A stretch of DNA of 64,000 nt, taken from NCBI GenBank assembly GCA_021731085.1, contig JAKFYB010000026.1, forward strand, positions 1 to 64,000. Direction: 5' to 3'. Origin of the DNA: Dehalococcoidia bacterium (GTDB lineage Bacteria > Chloroflexota > Dehalococcoidia > DSTF01 > JACRBR01). How positions within the stretch are numbered: position 1 is the stretch's first letter; every line of letters begins with the position of its first letter. Positions 43,389-48,016 of this stretch are shown here, in pieces. The notes under the pieces are model-generated. The model was given only the letters and a program-made list of their open reading frames with translations. It did not search any database and was not told the DNA's origin. The position numbers were made by a program, and so were the translations under genes.

Positions 43389-44795
43389 ATGAAGGCAATC
43401 GGCTACTTCCGTGAGTCCGCGCACGGCGGCGAGTCGCTGGCCCTCCAGCACAAGGGCTTCCTGGAACATTGCAAGAAGCACCGGCTTGAGGTCGCTGCCA
43501 CGTACGCGGAGGAACCCGCGGCGAACGGCGTCACGCCAGCGTTTCGACAACTTGTCGCTCACGTTAGGGTATGTCTCGAAGCTGATTCAAACGTTCTCAT
43601 AGCTTCCGTCGATGCCCTTGGCTCTGATCTGCGTGATGCCGCCGTCAGGCTCTACCAGCTTGAGAGTCTGGGCGCGCGCGTAGTACCGCTGTCTGGCGGG
43701 GACGACGCTGAAGCCGCGCTTTTGTCGCTCTGGAAGGGCGATGGGGCGAACGGCCGGCTCAGCGACAAGGTGCGCGCGGCCATGCGCAAGAAGGCCGTGA
43801 AGGGCGAAGTGCTCGGGCGGCCTCCGTACGGCTACAAGGTTGGCGCCCTTCGGCGGCTCGAACTCGTGCCCGAAGAGGCCGTGGTCGTTCGCTACATTTT
43901 CCGGCTCTACCTCAACGAAAACCTCGGCATTCGCCTCATCGCGCGTCGCCTCAACGAGGAAGAACTGAAGACGCGCCGCGGTGGCAACTGGAGCATGGTG
44001 AGCATCCGCGACATCCTCCGCAATCGCGCGTATCTCGGCACATACTCGCGCTTCGATGTCCATGTCAGCGGCACCCACCCCGCCCTCGTGTCGTCGGACG
44101 ACTTTCGCAATGTGCAGGATCGCCTCAACAGCCGTCGCACGAGTGCTGCACCGCGCACACCATCGCACTTCCTGCTATCGGGGCTCGCGCACTGCGGTTA
44201 CTGCGGCAACAAGCTCATCGGTGTCAGCCGCAAACAATCGTGGAAGCGCCAGGACGGAGAGCGCGTCTCCAACTCCTATCGCTACTACCAGTGTGAGTCC
44301 CGCACGAATCAGAGCGTCTGCGGCTACCACACCCGCCGCGCGGACGACCTCGAAGCCGCAGTGCTCGAACGCCTTCAGGACGCCGCTGCTACTGATATGA
44401 ATGGGACAAGCGAGTCCGCAGCGCCGCCGGCGCTCGACACTCGAGCAACCGAGCCCGATCGCCTGCGTGCGCGCATCAAGTCCATCGACCGCAAACTGGA
44501 GAGCTACATCGATGCCGCCGTGCGCGGCCGCATCACGAGAGAAAGGATGCACGCGCTCAGCATCGAGGCCGCGGCGCAGCGCCTCATCGTCGAAGATGCA
44601 CTGGAACTCGCCACCACACGTGTAGCCGACCGCTCGAACGAACCACACAACGCCTCCTTTCGAGATGAGCGCCGTCTGCGACTGATTGCGTCGTGGGAGG
44701 ATCCGGATTTCGAGGCGCGGCAGGCGCTGCTTCGGGACGTGCTGGAACGCATCACGGTCCGCGACGATGCCGTCGAACTCCACTTCCGCTCGTGA
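43389..44795 (+). CDS. Serine recombinase family protein with altered catalytic domain
   Basis: A 468-residue large serine recombinase-like protein. The resolvase domain keeps Arg8 and the nucleophile Ser10 (YFRES), but the usual DRLGRS-type motif that supplies two catalytic arginines reads DALGSDLRD. A Recombinase domain follows (RPPYGYK, RRLNEEELKTRRGGNWSMVSIRDILRNRAYLG), then a zinc ribbon (CGYCGNKLIG and later YYQCES, VCGYH) and a C-terminal coiled region. It directly follows the zinc-ribbon gene and precedes rnpB. No attachment sites or other phage genes are nearby, so a domesticated role is possible. Confidence 0.85.
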   Translation: MKAIGYFRESAHGGESLALQHKGFLEHCKKHRLEVAATYAEEPAANGVTPAFRQLVAHVRVCLEADSNVLIASVDALGSDLRDAAVRLYQLESLGARVVPLSGGDDAEAALLSLWKGDGANGRLSDKVRAAMRKKAVKGEVLGRPPYGYKVGALRRLELVPEEAVVVRYIFRLYLNENLGIRLIARRLNEEELKTRRGGNWSMVSIRDILRNRAYLGTYSRFDVHVSGTHPALVSSDDFRNVQDRLNSRRTSAAPRTPSHFLLSGLAHCGYCGNKLIGVSRKQSWKRQDGERVSNSYRYYQCESRTNQSVCGYHTRRADDLEAAVLERLQDAAATDMNGTSESAAPPALDTRATEPDRLRARIKSIDRKLESYIDAAVRGRITRERMHALSIEAAAQRLIVEDALELATTRVADRSNEPHNASFRDERRLRLIASWEDPDFEARQALLRDVLERITVRDDAVELHFRS

Positions 44796-44829: not shown

Positions 44830-45243
44830 GTCAGCGGGCCGGGTGGCCGCTCTCGTTTTGGCGAGGGAGGAAAGTCCGAACTCCATAGGGCAGGGTGCCG
44901 GTTAACGGCCGGGCGTCGCGAGGCGACGGAAAGTGCCACAGAAACATACCGCCGATTTGATCTCGCTGAAGCTGCAGCCAACGGTTGCAGCGCTGGCGGG
45001 ATCAAGTCGGTAAGGGCGAAATGGTGCGGTAAGAGCGCACCGGCGCCGTGGAAACACGGCGGCCGGGCAAACCCCACCCGGAGCAAGGTTACATAGGGGA
45101 CCGCTGCCACTTCGGTGGTATAAGGACTGCCCGTCCGAGAGTCCCGGGTCAGCCGCTTGAGCTGCGTGGCGACGCGCAGCCCAGATAGATGGTCACCGCC
45201 TGCCGTTGGCAGAGCACAGAATTCGGCTTATAGGCCCGCTGAC
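44830..45243 (+). ncRNA. rnpB: RNase P RNA, bacterial class A
   Basis: The catalytic RNA of RNase P, which trims tRNA 5' ends. The closing stem P1 is gtcagcgggcc (44830-44840) with ggcccgctgac (45233-45243). Conserved regions are gaggaaagtccgaactcc near the 5' end, cacagaaacataccgcc, the ggtaagggcgaaatggtgcg segment, gcaaaccccacccggagcaa, and agatagatggtcaccgcc followed by cagaattcggctta near the 3' end. The length of about 414 bases is normal. It precedes two FKBP genes. Confidence 0.97.
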
Positions 45244-45333
45244 ATACTTCGAACCCACGCATCATGGCTTCGAAACGAACCTGCGTTGCGTTGGAGATCA
45301 GCACCGCCCACAATTGCGGTCAGGAGGAGAAAA

Positions 45334-46341: not shown

Positions 46342-47124
46342 TTACAGCGTCGACTGCAAGAACTCCACTACGACGTCGTTGAACTGGTCCGGCTGCTCGA
46401 AGTACGTCGAGTGGCCGCTGTCCTTGATCAAGGCGAACTGCGAGCCGGCGACGGCGCGGTGGCATCCCTCAATGATGTGCGGCGGCGTGACGGCGTCGTG
46501 GTCGCCGACAAGAAACAGGATCTTCATCCCCGAATCCCCGAGTCGCTGCGCTGAACTGCCGCGGTAGCCGACGAGCGGTGCCAGGAAGTCCTTCGGGCGT
46601 GGCGGGTTGAGGCGGCCGATCGAGCGGTACAGGAACTCGGCCGCAGCGGCGCGCTCCTTCATTTGTGGCGAGACCGACTTCTTTCCGAGCGCCAGCTGTC
46701 CCATTTCAGTCTCACGATATTCGTCCTGCATTTCGCGCACATCGTCGTCGATGGCGCCGCCCGTTGTCCCGCAAAAGGCGATCGCCTCACAGCGGCCGGG
46801 GTTGAGCAACGAGAAGCCTACGGCCGTTCGCCCGCCCATCGACTGGGCTACGATGCGCACCGTATCGATCTCCAGCAGGTCAAGCAGATCGCGAAGGTCT
46901 TCGTGGAAGCCACGGCGTCCTTTGGCCTCCTCGCCATCCGCGTCACGCGACAGGCCGAAGGCGCGGTGGTCGAACGTGATGCAGCGGAAGTGTCGCTGGA
47001 AGACGGGGATCTGCTGCCACCACGAAAGGTGGTTGCCGCCGGCGCCATGCGCGAACACGACCGCAGGGCCCTCGCCGTGGGACTCGTAGTAGAGATTGAT
47101 GCCGTTGATCGGGGCGTAGGGCAT
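46342..47124 (-). CDS. Alpha/beta hydrolase
   Basis: A 260-residue alpha/beta-hydrolase fold enzyme. The oxyanion segment is HGAGGNHLSWW, the nucleophile Ser is in AQSMGGRTAVG (about residue 95), and the catalytic His is near the end in KDSGHSTYFEQ. The acid is likely in LVGDHDAVTP. It resembles esterases and meta-cleavage hydrolases, but the substrate is unknown. A TAAACT box lies 7 bases upstream of the ATG, with no ribosome site. Confidence 0.9.
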   Translation of the reverse strand: MPYAPINGINLYYESHGEGPAVVFAHGAGGNHLSWWQQIPVFQRHFRCITFDHRAFGLSRDADGEEAKGRRGFHEDLRDLLDLLEIDTVRIVAQSMGGRTAVGFSLLNPGRCEAIAFCGTTGGAIDDDVREMQDEYRETEMGQLALGKKSVSPQMKERAAAAEFLYRSIGRLNPPRPKDFLAPLVGYRGSSAQRLGDSGMKILFLVGDHDAVTPPHIIEGCHRAVAGSQFALIKDSGHSTYFEQPDQFNDVVVEFLQSTL

Positions 47125-47180
47125 GGGGGCGAGTTTACAGAGGTGTGTTCACAGAGGCGAGTCGTGGCCGGGCGCCGGAC

Positions 47181-47354
47181 AAAAGAAAATCGCGAGGGGC
47201 GGGGGCCCTCGCGATTTCTAACGGCTCTGTGCTCTGGAGGTTGGGGCCGGGACGCTAAGTCTTTGGCCTTACGAAATTGTGAGCGTCCCGACCCCCGGTC
47301 TAAGTCCCTACGTGCAGGAGGTCAAATTGCACGTTTGGTCGTCCCTACAGAGCC
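47181..47354 (-). ncRNA. Candidate structured small RNA with intrinsic terminator
   Basis: Reading the minus strand: closing stem 47347-47354 with 47223-47230 (8 bp), a 7-bp hairpin 47328-47334 with 47310-47316 whose loop contains gacctcc, a long hairpin 47282-47295 with 47243-47256 (14 bp, one mismatch), then a 12-bp GC-rich hairpin (47206-47217 with 47187-47198) followed by attttctttt. The motif gtagggac occurs on both sides of the loop hairpin. It could be a free small RNA or a leader attenuator for the hydrolase gene starting at 47124. No known RNA family was recognised. Confidence 0.6.
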
Positions 47355-47448
47355 ATACTAGGATCGACCTGTTAACTGCCCGTTAACGAAGCGAGTCACG
47401 GATGCTAAGAATTCCGGGCGGGCGGTTTCTTGACGCCGTGGGCCAGAT

Positions 47449-47988
47449 TCAACCGCAGTAGGTGGCGCCGTTGAAGGGGCCGCCGGGCGCCCACATGTTC
47501 CAGCCGGCGTTGCGAGCCCATGTCTCGGAGGCCCGCGCCCAGGCGAGATAGCCCTCGTTATCGCCGTAATAGGCGGCCTTCGCGAGCCCGACGTACACCA
47601 TGACGATGCTGATGTTGTACTCGGCGCCGTCCGTGCCGGTGACGATCGGCGCCGCGAGCACGCGTCCGTAGCGGTCGCCGCGCACGGCGTCGTATTCGAG
47701 CCGGACGACCGTGCCCGGCCGCAGGAAGATGCCTGCAAGCGCGTCTTTCGCCCACTGACCGCCGCACGTCCCCAACTCCGGCGTGTCGATCTGGAGCATG
47801 CGTACGCGCGGGCCATCGCGGCAGATGAACGTATCGCCGTCCACGACGCGCTCGACCTCGCAGTGCGTCACGTAGCCGGTCGCTTCGGATGGACGCAGGC
47901 TCCCGCCCAACGACGAAGTGACACCCGCCGCGGCAATGCAGAGCAGAGTCACCGTCACGAGCGAAGCCGCGCATCGAAATAGCTGCAT
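47449..47988 (-). CDS. Secreted thermonuclease (SNase-like)
   Basis: About 179 residues with an N-terminal signal helix, then a staphylococcal-nuclease OB fold with VVDGDTFIC, VRMLQIDTPE, and DRYGRVLA carrying the catalytic Arg and Asp/Glu residues. Four Cys residues may form disulfides. The start is the ATG giving MQLFRC, with a TATGCT box 8 bases upstream. It is divergent from the gene at 48022, with only 33 bases between the two start codons. Confidence 0.88.
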   Translation of the reverse strand: MQLFRCAASLVTVTLLCIAAAGVTSSLGGSLRPSEATGYVTHCEVERVVDGDTFICRDGPRVRMLQIDTPELGTCGGQWAKDALAGIFLRPGTVVRLEYDAVRGDRYGRVLAAPIVTGTDGAEYNISIVMVYVGLAKAAYYGDNEGYLAWARASETWARNAGWNMWAPGGPFNGATYCG

Positions 47989-47996
47989 CGATCGCA

Positions 47997-48016
47997 AGCA
48001 TACCGCCCGATAAGAT
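47997..48016. promoter_or_regulatory. Overlapping divergent -10 boxes
   Basis: TATGCT on the minus strand (47997-48002) and TAAGAT on the plus strand (48011-48016) serve the nuclease gene and the gene at 48022. Each lies 5-8 bases from its start codon, so both mRNAs may be leaderless. Confidence 0.5.

Follow-up and report, generated by a model that had tools for sequence, protein, structure and literature searches.

A conserved small RNA with a predicted Pho-type promoter and an anti-Shine-Dalgarno loop in a family of Dehalococcoidia

The small RNA gene and its surroundings

The window analysed comprises 64,000 nucleotides of a Dehalococcoidia genome (referred to as G000, 3.58 Mb), and all positions without a contig name are those of this window. 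A 324-base gap separates an SNase-like gene from an alpha/beta hydrolase gene, and its minus strand carries the element described here (Table 1). As judged from the sequence, this is a small RNA gene with its own promoter and its own intrinsic terminator, independent of the neighbouring genes. A comparison of the homologues revealed no conserved open reading frame or small peptide within the RNA. The preliminary description of the locus had recognised a hairpin with its loop (ATTTGACCTCC), a 14-bp hairpin and a textbook terminator, all of which lie where it placed them, and had left out the promoter of the RNA (47387-47355).

Table 1. Features of the small RNA locus and of other parts of the window.
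Feature	Position	Strand	Remarks
SNase-like gene	47449-47997		borders the gap
Pho-type box	47371-47387	-	two GTTAAC direct repeats with an 11-bp period, 47387-47382 and 47376-47371
-10 element of the small RNA, TAGTAT	47355-47360	-	10 nt beyond the end of the last TTAAC
Small RNA gene	47181-47348	-	about 168 nt; predicted start 7 nt past the -10 element, predicted end at the T tract
Hairpin 1	47310-47334	-	7-bp stem closing the anti-Shine-Dalgarno loop; compensatory changes
Loop of hairpin 1, AUUUGACCUCC	47317-47327	-	ACCUCC at 47322-47317, the same in 6/6 genomes
Hairpin 2	47243-47295	-	stem of 13-14 bp; CACAA and CA(C)AGA motifs in the loop; four pairs with compensatory changes
Intrinsic terminator	47181-47218	-	13-bp stem (47218-47186) followed by TTTTCTTTT
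-10 element of the hydrolase gene, TAAACT	47132-47137	-	ATG 7 nt on; leaderless
Alpha/beta hydrolase (Abhydrolase_1)	46342-47124	-	next gene downstream in 6/6 genomes; separate transcription unit
RNase P RNA, bacterial class A	44831-45246	+	full-length Rfam match, 296 bits
Large serine recombinase	43389-44795	+	Resolvase, Recombinase and zinc-ribbon domains

The RNase P RNA is the sole Rfam match at gathering threshold within the window. The recombinase gene lies directly upstream of it and is possibly the remnant of a mobile element.

Structure and conservation

The RNA folds far more stably than its shuffled versions, with z = -6.0 for 178 nt including the terminator and z = -3.6 for hairpins 1 and 2 without it. 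Across the first five homologues, standard pairs occupy 98% of the cells of the two hairpins and five pairs are changed on both sides, whereas the same structure slid along the alignment gave at most 46% standard pairs and at most two changes of this kind; the pair count of the hairpins exceeds that of both shuffles and slides. An unguided RNAalifold prediction on six sequences, terminator included, returned three hairpins and 10 compensatory pairs, which is a modest covariation as the sample consists of six homologues, two of them close to each other. Compensatory changes were seen in both hairpins put forward in the preliminary description, in hairpin 1 as C-G to U-A and A-U to G-C replacements in the stem. 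The loop sequence ACCUCC that this stem carries is unpaired, is the complement of the core of the Shine-Dalgarno (SD) sequence and does not vary in any of the six genomes. A constant loop on a changing stem is the pattern expected of a pairing seed presented on a scaffold. One homologue (G004) has the variant loop UUACCUCC, in which the differing bases fall outside the SD-complementary core; its target sites would be expected to read GGAGGUAA. Hairpin 2, with its CACAA and CA(C)AGA loop, is as well conserved as hairpin 1.

Two further elements of the preliminary description fared less well. A closing stem had been proposed, but its 5' arm (GGCTCTGT) directly follows the -10 element and is mostly upstream of the probable transcription start, the complementarity of its arms is significant only in G000 (shuffle p 0.00, against 0.15-0.76 in the other five genomes), and it is absent from the RNAalifold prediction. 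The motif GTAGGGAC had been noted on both sides of the loop hairpin; the GGGAC 3' of the hairpin is kept among the homologues, while the copy on the 5' side has become GTAAGA or GTAGAG. Also discarded was a pairing of the loop with GGGGGUC at the base of hairpin 2, spotted by eye in G000, as the homologues have mismatches there.

Distribution and novelty

Of eight genomes from one Dehalococcoidia family, searches with blastn and a covariance model located the RNA in six (G000, G002 and G004-G007), which span four genera. The two remaining genomes, G001 and G003, are 72% and 84% complete, respectively. A covariance-model search of 393 genomes of the class and 301 of the phylum turned up no convincing member beyond the family, the weak matches found there either missing the loop or being situated in coding-like sequence. 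When 84,980 species genomes were scanned for a core pattern, 111 stretches emerged; among the 80 loci listed, only three score as members, all from the same family.

The earlier impression that the element belongs to no known RNA family is borne out by Rfam, as none of its covariance models, including those for 6C, 6S, SRP, tmRNA, riboswitches and rhizobial sRNA families, matched at gathering threshold; the best weak scores were 18.4 against a required 47 bits for 6C and 14.2 against 50 bits for ctRNA_p42d. Our literature search found no paper joining small RNA, Pho regulon, PhoB and anti-Shine-Dalgarno, and word searches in two surveys of structured RNAs revealed no motif of this kind. The RNA is a real and previously uncatalogued small RNA family, although of a kind that is already known. 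Hardly any small RNAs have been described from uncultured Dehalococcoidia; for this one both the signal (phosphate) and the mode of action (occlusion of the SD site) are predicted from sequence alone.

A Pho-type promoter

In all six homologues the RNA is preceded by TTAAC/T direct repeats 11 bp apart, the two TTAAC repeats being held at a fixed distance of 9 nt ahead of CTANNNT. The promoter of pstS has the same repeats with the same spacing to its -10 element, and the nine-nucleotide interval between TTAAH and BTANNNT recurs in 6/6 genomes at the small RNA and in 7/8 at pstS. Published PHO boxes consist of direct repeats of 11 nt (PMC4415409) and lie near the -10 element (PMC1906773), and the SphR box of cyanobacteria, CTTAACCT (PMC1906773), is nearly identical in sequence to the GTTAAC repeats of the small RNA. 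In G000 the pst operon has the order pstS, pstC, pstA (named by position only), pstB, phoU, an OmpR-family PhoB-like response regulator and a PhoR/PnpS-like kinase, the regulator scoring 247 bits and so below the PhoB equivalog cut-off of 296. A Pho-type promoter for the small RNA is well supported by these sequence features, and would be a candidate site for this PhoB-like regulator.

In order to see how often this arrangement occurs, the composite pattern TTAAH-N6-TTAAH-N9-BTANNNT was scanned genome-wide in the eight family genomes. Exactly two matches, the small RNA and pstS, were found in each of G000, G004, G005, G006 and G007, so that by this measure the genome has no full Pho promoter other than those of the small RNA and the pst operon. 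G003, which lacks the RNA, has the pstS match alone, G001 has pstS and one other place, and G002 has the small RNA and three other places; a reversed control pattern gave no match in any of the eight genomes. As the pattern was designed after both kinds of site had been seen, and was drawn from them, the matches themselves are unsurprising, and the evidence resides in the near absence of others. This suggests that high-affinity phosphate uptake and an RNA regulator are paired in a very small Pho regulon of this lineage; the compact pattern may be used for finding Pho sites in related genomes.

A narrower repeat pattern identified four places in G000: the small RNA, pstS, a region beside a polyphosphate kinase gene and an oxidoreductase gene. 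The third of these is intergenic, with TTAAC repeats in both orientations beside the polyphosphate kinase 1 gene (G000:C3:144736-144752; L171, L216), and is likely, from its sequence, to be a further site of the Pho regulon. At the fourth, three TTAAC/T repeats stand upstream of a Gfo/Idh/MocA-type oxidoreductase gene (G000:C14:58901-58917; L173, L215), the SD sequence of which, GGAGGTCC, is complementary to part of the small RNA loop. In G002, two divergent Pho-type patterns about 25 bp apart were observed upstream of an ORF for a secreted-like protein (G002:C6:180805-180891; L288, L295).

Proposed function and alternative explanations

We consider it probable that the RNA is a phosphate-starvation-induced, trans-acting small RNA of the Pho regulon that blocks the SD sites of selected mRNAs. 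Under phosphate limitation the PhoB-like regulator of the pst operon would bind the tandem TTAAC repeats and recruit RNA polymerase to the -10 box, giving rise to an RNA of presumably ~168 nt ended by the intrinsic terminator. The loop of hairpin 1, UUUGACCUCC, would then pair with GGAGGU(CA) ribosome-binding sites and block translation of the mRNAs concerned, and hairpin 2 and the terminator may contribute to RNA stability or to the binding of a partner. Since GGAGGU(CA) is the core of strong ribosome-binding sites and can pair with the loop, the RNA most likely serves to repress translation when phosphate is limiting. The proposal is supported in silico by the conserved pstS-like promoter, the hairpins with compensatory changes, the invariant anti-SD loop, the terminator and the separate promoter of the hydrolase gene.

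The constant association with the hydrolase gene calls for consideration of another arrangement, in which the Pho-type promoter drives a Pho-regulated hydrolase gene through a structured 5' leader with a conditional terminator, acting as an attenuator or in a riboswitch-like manner. An ortholog of the hydrolase (64-73% identical) follows on the same strand in all six RNA-bearing genomes, while the gene upstream of the RNA varies, being SNase-like in G000 and HD-domain-like in G004-G007; moreover, neither the RNA nor the hydrolase ortholog is present in G001 and G003. This one fact, a linkage that persists despite the changing upstream gene, lends some weight to the leader reading and to a possible role in cis. 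However, the -10 box 7 bases before the hydrolase ATG, remarked on in the preliminary description, is kept as TA-N-A-(A/C)-T in 6/6 genomes with no SD sequence following it, so that a transcript reading through from the small RNA promoter would be devoid of a ribosome site and the anti-SD loop would find no SD in cis. The folds showed no alternative pairing for an antiterminator, and no leader family in Rfam matches. Because the hydrolase has a leaderless promoter and the RNA a terminator of its own, a separate RNA is favoured and the leader is, in our judgement, unlikely; a new small RNA separate from the downstream gene and bearing an anti-SD loop, as first suggested, is the best-supported reading.

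The RNA could also act on a protein or on the ribosome, in the manner of 6S RNA, CsrB or a sponge for a translation factor, its anti-SD-like loop then being an element for protein recognition with no mRNA seed. The conservation of the hairpin 2 loop on a par with hairpin 1 would fit such a function, as would the outcome of a target search in the six genomes, which yielded no conserved mRNA. In this search the 8-nt seed GGAGGTCA was required with an ATG within 8 nt, and the encoded proteins were compared; 8-17 occurrences before an ATG were found per genome, and there was no target common to the whole family at this seed, a result that also counts against the proposed pairing with mRNAs. Duplicates aside, only two protein families recur in more than one genome: a phosphoketolase, in the sister genomes G006 and G007, and a membrane protein judged by eye to be DUF4389-like, in G002 and G006. 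Phosphoketolase consumes phosphate, but was rejected as a general target, its site being restricted to G006/G007 and its gene missing from G000, G002, G004 and G005. Against an action on protein or ribosome stand the lack of a match to 6S or any other Rfam family, the exact complementarity of the invariant hexamer to the SD core and the fact that the G004 variant alters the bases outside it, and we regard this alternative as very unlikely. Intergenic regions often contain long GC-rich hairpins and terminators, and the locus might be a mere cluster of such hairpins with a terminator and no RNA function. This is hardly credible in view of the conserved Pho-repeat promoter, the compensatory pairs and the constant loop on a changing stem in six genomes of four genera; a chance origin is ruled out, since five other genomes show both conservation and compensatory changes.

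A more speculative extension of the trans-acting small RNA is that it mimics the 16S rRNA tail and so works as a broad switch with no specific targets, dampening SD-led translation and sparing leaderless mRNAs in phosphate starvation. This appears distinctly unlikely, and presumes that leaderless mRNAs such as that of the adjacent hydrolase are widespread in the lineage.

Relation to known small RNAs and Pho promoters

The closest resemblance in loop design is to the rhizobial sRNAs SmelA075 and SmelA099 of alphaproteobacteria (PMC3927594), which likewise show an anti-Shine-Dalgarno sequence in hairpin loops on varying stems. These carry three or four such hairpins per RNA with the loop CCUCCUCCC, whereas the Dehalococcoidia RNA has a single one with UUUGACCUCC, its second hairpin is different and its promoter is of the Pho type. 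With 6C RNA (RF01066) it shares a two-hairpin layout, and the weak 6C match covers the 3' arm of hairpin 2 and the terminator; apart from its low score, this match misses the anti-SD hairpin, and the C-rich loops that define 6C are absent. The promoter resembles those recognised by PhoB, PhoP and SphR in having tandem 11-nt repeats just upstream of the -10 element and no good -35 (PMC4415409, PMC1906773), but those drive mRNAs for transporters and phosphatases, while the box predicted here would drive a small RNA. Sinorhizobium meliloti has small RNAs whose levels increase in phosphate-starved cells or that carry putative PhoB sites (PMC2573895), a likeness taken from their description only; those that are induced are without an evident PhoB site.

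A second small-RNA-like locus in the family

Another locus with the appearance of a small RNA gene was observed in three genomes of the same family (G000:C24:26474-26629, plus strand, L267; G001:C237:2282-2380, minus strand, L266; G002:C6:73999-74229, minus strand, L265). In G002, and probably in G001, it converges on the end of a ~715-aa gene, the product of which looks RNase J-like by eye and has no NCBIfam match. The locus comprises a hairpin with the loop AAGAGCAC, to which an unpaired GGGCUUCUUC could bind, and a long terminator hairpin. It is preceded by a promoter-like CATY..TTCTTAACAG-N7-CGATAMTG, in which the distance from TTAACA to the -10 element is about the same as in the first RNA.
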